Source of the DNA: Actinomycetes bacterium
Lineage (GTDB): Bacteria > Actinomycetota > Acidimicrobiia > Acidimicrobiales > Palsa-688
Assembly (NCBI GenBank): GCA_021838445.1
Contig: JAKCDU010000030.1
Coordinates: forward strand, 1 to 40,082
DNA: 40,082 bases
Reading direction: 5' to 3'
The notes under the pieces were generated by a model that did not search any database, was not told where the DNA came from, and worked only from the letters and a program-made list of their open reading frames with translations. Below, piece after piece: positions 28,824 to 36,152 of this stretch. A program made the translations under genes and the position numbers. Position 1 is the first letter of the stretch, and each line of letters opens with the position of its first letter.

Positions 28824-29423
28824 ATGGGCGACCACGACCGGCTCCGATGGGATGCCCGCTACGGGGCCGATACCGCGTCGGCGCCGAGCCCGCCGCCGGC
28901 CCTGCCCGAGCTGTTCTCCTCCCACGCGGGGCGTTTCCCCACCGCCGGGGAGGCGTTGGACGTAGCGTGCGGGACCGGTGAGAGCGCTGTCTGGCTGGCC
29001 GGGCTCGGCATGGAGGTGTGCGCCGCCGACATCTCGCCGGTGGCGCTGGCACGGGCCCGGCGACTGGCCGACGACCACGGGGTTGACCACCGGTGCCGCT
29101 TCGTGCTGGCCGACCTCGACCGGGGGCTTCCCGCCGGACCACAGGCGGCGGTGATCCTCTGCCACATGTTCCGCGACCCGCGCCTCTACGCGCCGCTGAT
29201 GGCCAGACTGGCCCCTGGGGGGCTGCTGGCCGTCGCCGTGCTGAGCGAGGTGGGCGACAGGCCCGGGCCGTTCCGGGCGGCCAGGGGGGAGCTTCTGCGC
29301 GCTTTCGGGTCGCTCCACGTCCTGACGGGGGGCGAGGGGGAGGGCCGGGCCTGGTTGCTGGCCGAGAGGCGGCTCCATCGGCCCACCCCCGGTCGGCCGT
29401 CCGGACCGGGACTTTCGGCCTGA
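28824..29423 (+). CDS. SAM-dependent methyltransferase
   Basis: A 199-residue class I methyltransferase. Motif I is clear at GEALDVACGTGESAVWLA, followed by the acidic turn MEVCAADISPVALARARRLA, a DLDRGLPAGPQAAVILCHMF strand and LAPGGLLAVAVLSEV. The N-terminus RWDARYG resembles the tellurite/thiopurine-methyltransferase-like subgroup, but methyl acceptor and pathway are not recognisable. ATG at 28824, 48 bases after the DUF35 gene in the same direction, so it is probably in the same operon. No other partner is seen. Confidence 0.88.
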   Translation: MGDHDRLRWDARYGADTASAPSPPPALPELFSSHAGRFPTAGEALDVACGTGESAVWLAGLGMEVCAADISPVALARARRLADDHGVDHRCRFVLADLDRGLPAGPQAAVILCHMFRDPRLYAPLMARLAPGGLLAVAVLSEVGDRPGPFRAARGELLRAFGSLHVLTGGEGEGRAWLLAERRLHRPTPGRPSGPGLSA

Positions 29424-29499
29424 ATCGTCGCCGACGCCCCGACCGCGAAATAGCCGTTGAGGCACTAGCGTTGTCATGAGTGAAGTGCCGATACCCGAA

Positions 29500-29723
29500 A
29501 GGGGGTGGTGCCACCGGATGACCAGTAGAGTGGCCTCCGCCGACCACTGTAAGGACGACGAAGCCCGGCGGTAGCGCCGGGAGACCCGGATGAAGTGCGG
29601 AAACCAGGTGGGAGGATTCCGTGGGCAGGAGCCCGAGTGGGCTCCCCAGGGTTGGTCGGTCCGATCAGGGCGTTCGGAGGAACATGGAGAAGATGCCCGG
29701 TGACTGGCGGTCGCCGGGCATCT
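29500..29723 (+). ncRNA. Candidate structured RNA, family not assigned
   Basis: The 362-base gap between the methyltransferase and the acetyltransferase holds no credible gene but several strong hairpins in a row: GGTG/CACC with loop GTGC (29504-29515), AGTGG/CCACT with a C-rich loop CCTCCGCCGA (29529-29548), CCCGGCG/CGCCGGG with loop GTAG (29564-29581), GGAGCCC/GGGCTCC with loop GAGT (29628-29645), and a closing 14-bp hairpin (29691-29723). Single-stranded links are purine-rich (taaggacgacgaag, gatgaagtgcggaaacc), as in riboswitches or small RNAs. I compared it by eye with cobalamin, SAM, glycine, ydaO, RNase P, SRP and tmRNA patterns; part of a cobalamin-like CCACTGT...GGGAGACC is present but the core is missing. 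Strand is assumed from the neighbours. Confidence 0.35.
29691..29723 (+). terminator. Strong hairpin, probable U-less terminator
   Basis: 14-bp stem (agatgcccggtgac / gtcgccgggcatct with one G-U type pair) and a 5-base loop tggcg. No U-tract follows (cctgtcgg), which is common for actinobacterial intrinsic terminators. It ends the hairpin-rich region before the acetyltransferase gene. Confidence 0.55.
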
Positions 29724-29785
29724 CCTGTCGGTGGGCTGGGCCGATGGACCCTTCCGCGTGGGGTGGGCCAGGCAGATGATGGGGT

Positions 29786-30718
29786 ATGCAGGCTCGTCGG
29801 ATCCCATTGCCCGGCGGGCGTCTTCTCACCGTCCGGCCGGTGGTCGTGGCCGACGTCGTCGGTCTGGGGACGCTCTTCGGCGGATTGGACGAGGACGACA
29901 TGTACCGGCGGTTCTTCTCGGCCCGCCCGCCGCCGGCTCGCTTCATCGAGCAGATGACGACCGTCAGCGACCGAGGAGACTTCGGCGTGGTGGCCGTCCT
30001 CAGCGGTTCCGGTCGGGACGACCGACTGGTCGGCGAAGCCGGCTACGCGCGGCTGCCCGGAGGCGACGCCGAAGTCGGCATCACTGTCGCCTGTGCGCTG
30101 CGCGGCTGGCTCGGCCCCTACCTGCTGGACCTCCTCGTGGCCGAGGCCCGATCGCAGGGAATACCCAATCTCCAAGCAGAGGTGCTGATGGCCAACCGGA
30201 GGATGATGTCTCTGCTCGAGTCTCGTGGCATGGCCGTCATCGAGTGTTACGAGAACCCGGCTATCGCCCGGGTGTGCATCGGCACGAAGGGGCGGACGCC
30301 CGTCTGGTCGGGCGATGCCGCGGCCCCCCGGCTCCTGGTCGAGGCCGCCGGTGGTCGCTGGCGGGGCGCCGAGGTGGCCCGTCGGGCCGGCTTCTCCGTC
30401 CTTGTCTGCCCCGGGCGTCCGAGCCGCCTGGCGCCCTGTCCCGCCACCGCCGGCCAGCCGTGCCTTCTCGCCGCTACATCCGACGTGATCGTGATTTCGG
30501 TCGGGGGTGAGCGTCGGCAGGGGCTGATCGAGGCCCACCGCCAGCTGCACCCCGGAGTGAGGCTGTGCACCGATGCCGTCTCGAGCTCCATCGAGGATCA
30601 CGGGGTGCCGATACTGCCCGCGGCGACGACCGTCGAGGACATCGCCGCGGTGATCGGGGGGCTCACCGACGACGCCATAGTCGGGGAGGTGCCGGCCGTG
30701 GCCGGCCCGGCCAGGTGA
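29786..30718 (+). CDS. GNAT-family N-acetyltransferase with C-terminal extension
   Basis: A 310-residue protein. Residues 1-170 are a GNAT domain (RIPLPGGRLLTVRPVVVADV, LDEDDMYRRFFSARPPPARF, LVGEAGYARLP, EVGITVACALRGWLGPYLLD, LQAEVLMANRRMMSLLESRG). The acetyl-CoA loop reads RGWLGPYLL rather than the usual RGxGxG/A. Residues ~175-310 are an extra domain with several Cys and a VIVISVGGERR strand that I do not recognise. The N-terminal GNAT resembles the Pat/AcuA-type protein acetyltransferases that use RFF..P-like motifs. It stands 103 bases before the acetyl-CoA-synthetase-like ligase, the classical target of such enzymes. The target assignment is an inference. Confidence 0.8.
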   Translation: MQARRIPLPGGRLLTVRPVVVADVVGLGTLFGGLDEDDMYRRFFSARPPPARFIEQMTTVSDRGDFGVVAVLSGSGRDDRLVGEAGYARLPGGDAEVGITVACALRGWLGPYLLDLLVAEARSQGIPNLQAEVLMANRRMMSLLESRGMAVIECYENPAIARVCIGTKGRTPVWSGDAAAPRLLVEAAGGRWRGAEVARRAGFSVLVCPGRPSRLAPCPATAGQPCLLAATSDVIVISVGGERRQGLIEAHRQLHPGVRLCTDAVSSSIEDHGVPILPAATTVEDIAAVIGGLTDDAIVGEVPAVAGPAR

Positions 30719-30821
30719 CGGCGGCCCAAGCATGACCTTCGCCTCTTGGTCGCCGGCGAGAGGCGCCGTAGCTTCGAGATGAAGACGCTGGCACCTACCG
30801 CCGAGAGGGAGGCGTCACGGC

Positions 30822-32596
<1,775 letters not shown>

Positions 32597-32600
<4 letters not shown>

Positions 32601-33610
32601 CCGCGGTAGCGTCCGGCGGCCGGGTCGGCGACGGGTCGGTGGCCATGCTGCGCCAGATGATCAGGATCCGTCGCTTCGAGGAACGCTGCGTCGAGCTGTA
32701 CAGCCGAGGCGACATACGGGGGTTCTTGCACCTGGCCATAGGGGAGGAGGCCTGCGCGGTGGGAGTCACGGAGGCACTCGACACCGACGACGCGGTGGTC
32801 GCCACCTACCGAGAGCACGGCCATGCCCTGGCTCGGGGCCTGTCGATGGGCGCGGTCATGGCCGAGCTCGAAGGCAAAGTCGAAGGCTGCAGCCGGGGCC
32901 GGGGCGGCTCCATGCATCTCTTCGACGCGCCAACGCGCTTCTACGGAGGCAACGCCATCGTGGCCGGCGGTCTGCCCCTGGCCGTGGGCCTGGCCCTGGC
33001 TGACCGCATGAACGGGCGTGAGCGGGTGACAGCCTGCTTCTTCGGCGACGGAGCGGTGGCCGAAGGAGAATTCCACGAGTGCCTCAACCTGGCGTCACTG
33101 TGGCACCTGCCCGTCCTGTTCTGCTGTGAGAACAACCTCTACGCCATGGGGACCGCCCTGCGGCTCACCGAGTCCGAGACCGATCTCTCGCTGAAGGCGG
33201 CCAGCTACCGCATTCCGTCGTGGGAAGTCGACGGCATGGACGTTCGCGCCGTGCGGGAGGCGGCCGCCAGGGCGGTGGAGGCCATCCGGTCCGGCGGCGG
33301 CCCGCACTTCCTGGAGATGCGCACCTACCGGTTCCGGGCCCATTCCATGTACGACCCTGACCGCTACCGCCAAAAGGACGAGATCGAGTCGTGGAAGCAG
33401 CACGATCCCATTCCCACGCTCAGTGAGGCACTGCTCGCCGAAGGGGTGCTGACTGCCGCCGACCTGGTCTCCATGGAGGAGGCGGTGGACGCCGAGGTCG
33501 ATGACGCGGTGTCCTTCGCTGAGAGCGGGACCATCGAGCCGGTGGAGGATCTCGAGCGCTTCGTCACGACCCCGGCACCCGCTGACGCGGATGGAGGCCG
33601 ACGGTCATGA
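32597..33610 (+). CDS. 2-oxoacid dehydrogenase E1 alpha (pyruvate/acetoin type)
   Basis: A 337-residue thiamine-diphosphate enzyme subunit that decarboxylates a 2-oxoacid or cleaves acetoin. Features: [40 protein letters not shown], and the TPP motif from [20 protein letters not shown] (GDG at 150-152) to CENN (NN at 179-180). Arg-rich [19 protein letters not shown] carries the phosphorylation-loop region of family members. Size is that of AcoA/PdhA proteins that pair with a separate beta subunit. It overlaps the ligase by 4 bases and the beta gene by 4 bases. Pyruvate versus acetoin cannot be decided from sequence alone. Confidence 0.93.
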
Positions 33611-34599
33611 CCACCGTCACCTTCCGGGACGCGCTGCGCGAAGCCCTCCGCGAGGCGCTGCGCAGCGATGATCGGGTGTTCCTGATGGGCGAGGACGTCG
33701 GCCGCTACGGAGGTTGCTACGCGGTCAGCCTCGGGTTGCTGGAGGAGTTCGGGCCTGAGCGAATCCGGGACACGCCCCTGTCGGAGTCGGCCTTCGTCGG
33801 CGCCGGGATCGGCGCCGCTCTTGGCGGGATGAGGCCCATCGTGGAGATCATGACCGTCAACTTCAGCCTCCTGGCCCTCGATCAGATCGTGAACAACGCG
33901 GCCAGCCTCCTGTACATGTCGGGGGGCCAGTTCAATGTGCCGCTGGTGATCCGCATGACCACCGGGGCGGGCCGCCAGCTCGGCGCCCAGCACTCCCACA
34001 GTCTCGAGGGTTGGTACGCCCACATCCCGGGGCTGCGCATCCTCACGCCGGCCACCCACGCCGACGCTCGCGGCATGCTGCGACCGGCGCTGGCCGACCC
34101 CGACCCGGTCCTCATCTTCGAGCACGGATCGCTCTACAACGTGCGGGGCGAGCTCGATGACCACGCCGGCCCGGTGGACCTCGACCACGCCGCGGTGCGC
34201 CGCCCCGGCCGTGACGTGACCCTCATCGCCTACGGAGGGACGTTGCGAGTGGCCCTGGAGGCAGCCGACCGGCTCTCAGGGGCGGGGGTGGAGGCGGAGG
34301 TCGTCGACCTGAGGACGCTGCGCCCCCTCGACACCGCCACCCTGCTCGACTCGGTGGCCCGCACCCACCGAGCGGTGGTCGTCGACGAGGGCTGGCGGTC
34401 CGGAAGCATCTCGGCCGAGATCAGCGCCAGGATCACCGAAGAGGCCTTCTACGACCTCGACGCCCCGGTCGGGCGGGTCTGCAGCGCCGAGGTGCCGATG
34501 CCCTACGCCCGCCACCTCGAAGAGGCGGCCCTGCCCCGAGCGGAGGACGTCATCGCCGCCGTCGGGCGTCTCGGGGGCTGCGGAGGTTCGGATGGGTGA
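33607..34599 (+). CDS. 2-oxoacid dehydrogenase E1 beta (pyruvate/acetoin type)
   Basis: A 330-residue transketolase-like beta subunit: [36 protein letters not shown], then [40 protein letters not shown] and [20 protein letters not shown], then the C-terminal domain ([38 protein letters not shown]). It forms an alpha2-beta2 heterotetramer with the upstream product; the [11 protein letters not shown] block is a hallmark of PdhB/AcoB. ATG at 33607 in a 4-base overlap with E1 alpha; it overlaps E2 by 8 bases. Confidence 0.94.
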
Positions 34600-35821
34600 T
34601 TTCACCATGCCCGCGCTCGGTGCCGACATGGAGGTCGGGACGGTCACGCAGTGGTTCGTGCAGCCAGGGGCGACCGTCGAGCGCGGTGACATCGTCGCCG
34701 TGGTCGACACCGAGAAGTCGACCATCGAAGTCGAGGTCTTTGAATCCGGCGTGGTGGACCGCATCCTCGTCGGTGAGGGTGAGGAGGTCCCGGTGGGGAC
34801 GGTGCTGGCCCACATCTCGACGGGAAGCGACGCCGGGGAGACGCATTCGCCGGTGGTCCGTCACCTGGCCGAGAAACTGGGAGTGGACCTGCACGCCATT
34901 GCCGGCACGGGGCTGGGGGGTGGGTTGACCCGGGCCGATGTGGAGCGGGCGGCGCGCCCCGCCCCGGTGGCTTCGGGGACCGGGGGCGGCCGGAAGGGGC
35001 CGGTCCGTTCCTCGCCGTTGGCCCGCCGGCGGGCGGCCGAAGCGAACCGGGACCTCTCGACGGTGGCGGGCAGTGGTCCCGGCGGTGCCGTCCTCGCCAC
35101 TGACCTGGCCGCCCCGATATCGGCGATTCGACGACCTGCGACCGGGACGGAGCAGCGGGCCGAGGCGGTGAGACGGGCCACGGGCCTGCTCATGGCCCGG
35201 TCCAAGCGGGAGATACCCCACTACTACCTTTCGACGACTGTCGACATGGCTCTGAGCAAGGAGTGGCTGGAACGCACCAATGCCGGTCGTTCGGTGACCG
35301 ATAGGCTGCTGCCTGCCGTCCTGCTGCTGAAAGCGACGACATTGGCCGTGGCCAAAGTGCCGGAGATGAACGGGTTCTTCGTCGACGATCGGTTCGAGCC
35401 GGCACCGACGGTAAGTCTCGGCGTCGCCATCTCACGGCGCGACGGAGGCCTGTCGGCGCCCGCCATCGTCGGGGCCGAAAAGCTGTCCCTGGACGAGCTG
35501 ATGGGCCGCCTGCGCGACCTGGTGGGCCGGGCCCGCTCCGGTGCGCTGCGCAGCTCCGAGGTGTCTGGCGCGACCATCACGGTGACCAATCTGGGTGACC
35601 TGGGCGTCGACTCGGTCTACGGGGTCATCTACCCGCCGCAGGTGGCCCTGGTGGGCTTCGGCCGTATCGTCGAGCGGCCGGTGGCCCTACGGGGGCTACT
35701 GGGCGTGAGGCCGACACTGGTCGCCACTCTGGCCGCCGACCACCGGGCCAGCGACGGCCACCGGGGCGGCCGTTTCCTGGCCGAGATCGATCGTCTCCTA
35801 CAAGAACCGGGGAAGCTATGA
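34592..35821 (+). CDS. Dihydrolipoamide acyltransferase E2 with two subunit-binding domains
   Basis: A 409-residue core protein. Residues 1-76 are a lipoyl domain, with the lipoylated K42 in [13 protein letters not shown]. Two peripheral subunit-binding domains follow: 86-118 ([15 protein letters not shown]...GTG) and 140-172 ([15 protein letters not shown]...GSGPGG). The catalytic domain starts at ~185 and ends with H384 and D388 in [16 protein letters not shown], the standard HxxxDG pair. It accepts the acyl group from E1 on its lipoyl arm and passes it to CoA. The usual E2 has one binding domain; two is unusual. GTG start at 34592, 8-base overlap with E1 beta; its stop overlaps the ACP start. 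No E3 gene follows. Confidence 0.93.
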
Positions 35822-36063
35822 CAGAATCCGAGGCCCGACGAATCCTAGGAGCGGTGCTGGCCACTGTCGCTCCCGAAGCCGACCTGGACGAGGTCGGCGA
35901 AGGGGAGACCATGCAGGAGGCCATGGATCTCGACTCGGTCGACTTCTTGAACCTGGTGATCGGGTTGCACGAGCGGACCGGGATAGAGATTCCCGAGCGC
36001 GACTATCCCGAGCTGGCGACGGTGGAGGGCTGCGTGGCCTATCTGACCTCCGCTTCGGCCTGA
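35818..36063 (+). CDS. Acyl carrier protein
   Basis: An 81-residue acidic protein with the phosphopantetheine site at S40 in EAMDLDSVDFLNLVIGLHER, and the helix IEIPERDYPELATVEGCVAYL. Length and charge are those of AcpP-type carriers. ATG at 35818 in a 4-base overlap with E2, and nothing of a fatty-acid or polyketide synthase is nearby. An ACP tied by translation to a 2-oxoacid dehydrogenase and a ligase suggests that acyl groups made here may be loaded onto the carrier, or that it serves lipoyl/octanoyl supply. Both are inferences. Confidence 0.9.
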   Translation: MTESEARRILGAVLATVAPEADLDEVGEGETMQEAMDLDSVDFLNLVIGLHERTGIEIPERDYPELATVEGCVAYLTSASA

Positions 36064-36152
36064 CGCCGGCTCGCCCATCCCGCTCCGTCCGCGTCCGGCC
36101 GGCGACCGCTAGGCTGCGGCATCGACAGGTGATCTTTCAAGGAGGGGCCCCT

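Follow-up and report, generated by a model that had tools for sequence, protein, structure and literature searches.

A candidate lineage-restricted small RNA with an invariant C-rich loop beside an acidimicrobial methyltransferase gene

The DNA analyzed here, a stretch of 40,082 nucleotides that we call the window, contains a gene-free gap on the + strand at positions 29424-29785, between a methyltransferase stop at 29423 and the next gene start at 29786. The upstream gene (28824-29423) encodes a SAM-dependent methyltransferase (Pfam Methyltransf_25) and comes last in the order thiolase - DUF35 - methyltransferase. The downstream gene (29786-30718) encodes a Pat-like acetyltransferase, a name resting on an NCBIfam Pat score of 36.5 bits that is far under the cut-off of 460. 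Gene content and GC suggest an acidimicrobial actinobacterium as the source. On the same strand as the methyltransferase, and beginning ~70 bases past its stop, lies a candidate RNA. An original prediction, made from the DNA letters, had placed at least five hairpins in this gap; the sequence is as it described, and six hairpins can be drawn between about 29494 and 29728. The features are given below with their counterparts in G001, a MAG of the same genus.

29440-29489, + strand: moderately conserved block directly upstream of the RNA, a possible promoter region lacking a sigma-70 consensus; identity to G001 is 0.90 in 29440-29479 versus 0.76-0.82 in 29360-29439
29494-29728, + strand: candidate small RNA as a whole, with putative ends; 235 of 235 positions align to G001 without an indel, with 19 differences
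29494-29503, + strand: 5' hairpin CCC-GAAA-GGG, identical in the two species; pairs have a probability of 0.95 in the window and 0.4 in G001
29508-29520, + strand: 5' strand of a possible closing stem (GTGCC-A-CCGGATG) with its partner at 29671-29683, in the G001 minimum-energy fold and absent from the window's own
29526-29551, + strand: C-rich-loop hairpin, with CCTCCGCCGA invariant; local fold -6.7 to -7.9 kcal/mol in the window and -10.1 to -14.1 in G001, the stem register sliding two bases between species
29564-29581, + strand: hairpin CCCGGCG-GTAG-CGCCGGG, invariant; pair probability >0.9 in both species
about 29597-29622, + strand: weaker hairpin around CGGAA...TTCCG (GCGGAA/TTCCGT type); local fold -9.9 in the window and -9.2 in G001, where one pair is lost
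29628-29645, + strand: hairpin GGAGCCC-GAGT-GGGCTCC, invariant; 6 of 7 pairs with probability at least 0.94 in both species, the outermost at 0.89 and 0.50
29671-29683, + strand: CGTTCGG-A-GGAAC with CGGAGG, in two competing folds either the partner of the C-rich loop or the RNA-closing strand; CGGAGG invariant
29692-29722, + strand: terminator-like 14-pair hairpin without a T run, about -30 kcal/mol

The G001 genome holds the element at 92% identity. Its core (29514-29680) is 94% identical, with 10 differences in 167 positions and no indel, compared to 148 differences in 968 aligned positions (~15%) in four pieces of nearby intergenic DNA and 125 in 922 (13.6%) at the fourfold sites of four neighboring genes. 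The core is more conserved than the intergenic pieces (Fisher p 0.001) and than the fourfold sites (p 0.005), which from one genome pair is moderate evidence. The neighboring genes overall are 85-96% identical in G001, and the element is not more conserved than they are. Among these genes the methyltransferase gene at 28824-29423 diverges much faster than its neighbors between the two genomes (85% DNA identity; fourfold divergence of 0.24 versus 0.11-0.16). Codon periodicity was seen in no frame of the element, 19 substitution positions, counted by hand from position 34 of the first aligned sequence on, splitting 8, 6, and 5 by phase. In both species, two frames of the minus strand run open through the element, a pattern that, lacking periodicity, is what GC-rich DNA would be expected to give. 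A GGAGG...ATG at 29676-29686 was considered as a translation start and rejected, as the ATG reads ATA in G001.

The predicted RNA fold of 29480-29730 reaches -121.1 kcal/mol, versus -104.1 +/- 4.8 kcal/mol for dinucleotide shuffles (z -3.5), and none of 200 shuffles was as stable. When 240-base stretches were sampled from the + strand of the window and each compared to 12 shuffles, the element ranked first of 83 in stability over shuffles. The minus strand of the element also folds well relative to its own shuffles (z -4.6), so that stability alone does not choose the strand. More informative for this choice is the last hairpin, in which all 14 pairs are kept through four base changes between the window and G001. 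Positions 29693 and 29721 change together, from A-U to U-A, and two further changes are compatible through G-U pairing, at 29703/29711, where A-U becomes G-U, and at 29705/29709, where U-G becomes C-G. As the latter two pairs need G-U in one species, and would be C-A mismatches on the minus strand, they favor the + strand, which appears fairly well supported as the RNA strand.

Folding of the two-species alignment gave z -4.1 with the last hairpin; leaving this hairpin out gave z -1.8, with 8 of 150 column shuffles then as good. Most of the folding signal of the alignment is therefore in the last hairpin, and the remainder is weakly better than chance. Because only two genomes carry the element, covariation is minimal; the covariation that the original prediction looked for among relatives is present in part, as one two-sided change and two of G-U type, each within the last hairpin. 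The description of that hairpin as a closing terminator is likewise accurate in part: the 14-pair stem is strong, but a T run is lacking, and a terminator consensus scan of the element region was empty. In GC-rich bacteria, transcripts frequently terminate with no obvious T run. A promoter consensus scan of the same region, including the upstream block at 29440-29489, found none, and the window contains no tRNA or tmRNA.

The fold of the central region differs between the two species. In the minimum-energy fold of the window, CCTCCG (29534-29539) pairs with CGGAGG (29675-29680), while in that of G001 a pairing joins 29508-29520 to 29671-29683, leaving the C-rich loop to stand open in a separate hairpin. 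Neither CCTCCG nor CGGAGG differs at any base between the two. Exchanging the folds is costly, by 22.7 kcal/mol for the window fold on the G001 sequence and by 7.2 kcal/mol for the G001 fold on the window sequence. Either the G001-like fold would be the working one, or the RNA would switch, a choice beyond two sequences. The original prediction held the loop to be complementary to GGAGG ribosome-binding sites and likened it to C-rich-loop regulatory RNAs. CCTCC is indeed complementary to GGAGG, but in the window fold its partner is the internal CGGAGG. A regulatory mechanism of that kind may be possible; the loop is invariant in both species, yet mostly paired in the predicted window fold and open only in that of G001. 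The mean pairing energy of the loop with 24 start regions of the window beats that of 98% of 200 shuffled loops, a result from a small sample that any CCUCC would produce.

Comparison of the flanks suggests how the element relates to its neighbors. In G001, it is directly followed by DNA equivalent to window position 36101 onward, in which 36159, in window coordinates, is the start of a gene for a 156-amino-acid protein that has no Pfam match. The window instead has ~6.3 kb (29729-36100) between the last hairpin and this equivalent DNA, with genes for the Pat-like acetyltransferase, an acyl-CoA synthetase, PDH-like E1a, E1b, and E2 proteins, and a carrier protein (the synthetase and carrier are named from Pfam and the PDH-like proteins from reading their translations). 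The ~6.3-kb block may be an insertion in the window or a deletion in G001, and neither G001 nor G002, a third genome of the genus, yielded a match to the DNA of 29735-30800. Thus, G001 retains what lies upstream of the element but not what lies downstream, with the next gene on the same strand in both species but encoding the Pat-like acetyltransferase in one and the 156-amino-acid protein in the other. That the downstream genes differ while the element stays argues that the element forms an independent unit. The thiolase has a 97% identical counterpart in G001 and a best G002 match of 48%, and the best G002 match of the methyltransferase is 42% over part of its length; to judge from these comparisons, the whole neighborhood seems accessory.

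The element itself appears to be genus restricted, with two genomes carrying it among those searched. It was not found in G002 or in other genomes of the family. A DNA search of 61 genomes (own and relatives) returned the own genome, G001, and a 36-base match in G028 (L003); the last was dismissed as chance, with no Rfam match there and the model match in G028 sitting on another contig. Extending the DNA search to 298 genomes of the order, at E up to 1, gave matches in 249, and those listed, except the own, were short (~60 bases or less; best E 8e-4) and were taken as chance. Model R1, run on 32 family genomes, matched 10 with E up to 1, of which only the own genome and G001 were near 200 bits, the other eight scoring 22.3 bits or less. 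With stricter filters and E up to 0.01, a model search of 397 sampled genomes of the order found the own genome only, G001 presumably not being in the sample. An 18-base exact pattern occurred in 37 stretches across 84,980 species, and only L089, taken as a G001 contig, scores with the model (199.7 bits); the next best stretch, L084, reached 22.9 bits (E 0.0019), a value biased by its choice through the pattern. The element was not found in phages and plasmids, and the pattern gave 3 and 0 stretches in viral contigs, none scoring with the model. Methyltransferase orthologs in three further genomes, G011, G047, and G046 (48-58% identity), have no similar stretch nearby.

As a control, RNase P RNA was recovered by the same DNA search in 8 of 8 related genomes (96% identity in G001 and 90% in G002), so that the element is no housekeeping RNA of RNase P-like conservation. 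Two RNase P matches occur in G001, a genome with 7% contamination. That the element is itself the RNase P RNA was rejected, as RNase P was found elsewhere in the genome.

Searches of known families were consistent with an unassigned RNA. Rfam gave no match in the whole window at gathering score, and at E up to 10 it gave five weak matches in 29423-29800, the strongest of which, an enterobacterial sRNA, reached 19.1 bits where the cut-off is 60. This covariance check, which had been proposed with the original prediction, matched no known family; together with non-coding conservation in G001 and the pair-preserving changes of the last hairpin, it upholds the claim of an unassigned structured RNA. 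The stretch CCACTGTAA... resembles the cobalamin-riboswitch motif, a likeness set aside because no such model scored. Our literature search found no paper joining acidimicrobial bacteria, small RNA, and riboswitch.

Among known RNAs, one near comparison is the 6C/B11 small RNA of Actinobacteria (RF01066), which, like the element, has a C-rich hairpin loop that could pair with G-rich translation starts. The 6C model has 75 positions and B11 has two C-rich loops, in contrast to one such loop in about 235 nt here. RF01066 matched neither the window nor any of 21 genomes (own and relatives), in a search of limited sensitivity, as among 14 control genomes only Corynebacterium glutamicum matched, and that under the cut-off. 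Two C-rich-loop hairpins are typical of 6C RNA. For B11, mutating either one of its two loops still leaves an eccB4 reporter repressed in Mycobacterium abscessus (PMC10470900).

In its two genomes, the element is a conserved, non-coding, foldable sequence with a pair-preserving last hairpin, as would be expected of a terminator-bounded small RNA. Our preferred explanation, offered tentatively, is a lineage-restricted small RNA of about 235 nt, encoded on the + strand, ending at the strong hairpin and most likely acting in trans via its C-rich loop. Such an RNA would come from the + strand of the gap that follows the methyltransferase gene, either as its own transcript or cut from the end of the operon mRNA, and would end at the strong GC-rich hairpin. 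We infer both that the element is transcribed and where the RNA ends. By base pairing with G-rich ribosome-binding sites, the invariant C-rich loop CCUCCGCCGA would lower translation of targets, and the internal CGGAGG could mask this loop; such anti-Shine-Dalgarno action is weakly suggested. A bolder version has the anti-Shine-Dalgarno loop alternate between an exposed state and one masked by CGGAGG, an internal mimic of the Shine-Dalgarno sequence that would also close the whole RNA, so that folding state would decide whether target translation is blocked. This would be a new class of conformational switch RNA, and we regard it as quite improbable.

The nearest rival is that the structure is the 3' end of the upstream operon mRNA. 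Here, the thiolase - DUF35 - methyltransferase transcript would carry the element as its 3' untranslated end and terminator, protecting or ending the mRNA with no separate regulatory role. The position on the same strand shortly past the methyltransferase stop, the empty promoter scan, the concentration of folding signal in the last hairpin, and the conservation of the adjoining genes on the upstream side all fit this account. Against it stands the conservation of the 167-base core preceding the hairpin, which exceeds both that of other intergenic DNA and the need of a bare terminator, and we consider this account rather less likely than a small RNA.

Less likely still is that the element is conserved DNA without RNA function, reflecting binding sites, young undiverged sequence, or chance folding. 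Comparison is to one moderately close sister species, the p value of about 0.001 comes from that one genome pair, and GC-rich DNA folds readily, on the minus strand too. The top rank in stability among the 83 sampled stretches and the pair-preserving changes in the last hairpin speak against this reading.

A riboswitch-like leader with a terminator for the downstream gene is similarly doubtful. Like transcription-terminating riboswitch leaders, the element has a closing stem, several hairpins, and a terminator-like hairpin in order, and the next gene lies on the same strand in both species. An alternative partner for the closing-stem strand GCCACCGG (29510-29517) could be CCGGTGAC (29697-29704) within the last hairpin, a pairing that would prevent termination; by hand count, it joins 7 of 8 positions in the window and all 8 in G001. 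This pairing of GCCACCGG with the 5' arm of the last hairpin may be an antiterminator or chance, as short GC-rich complementarity easily arises by chance. Unlike such leaders, the element has no known Rfam aptamer or riboswitch match and no conserved downstream gene, and retention of the upstream but not the downstream side weighs against a leader tied to one gene. The last hairpin, at about -30 kcal/mol, is a further point against it.

A diverged Ms1-like RNA, which by analogy would bind the RNA polymerase core, is highly improbable: the element resembles Ms1/6S-like RNA in length class (220- to 235-nt subsequences gave Ms1-like folds in Streptomyces coelicolor; PMC9130861), and its predicted window fold, a branched rod flanked by a short hairpin at either end, is loosely like the Ms1-type long hairpin with central bubble. 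The G001 fold is different, however, and the rod-like fold is unsuited to the G001 sequence. Moreover, the element is limited to two genomes, with none found in G002, and the HAD hydrolase gene reported to adjoin Ms1 in most species (PMC9130861) has no counterpart among nine flanking proteins scanned with Pfam, so that Ms1 synteny was not seen.

The small RNA that we prefer is probably young and ordinary for a bacterium. A candidate small RNA alone opens no new mechanism. If transcribed, the element would be an unlisted small RNA without an Rfam relative, and an RNA gene kept in two close species and not found in a third of the genus would be useful for the study of small-RNA origin and loss.
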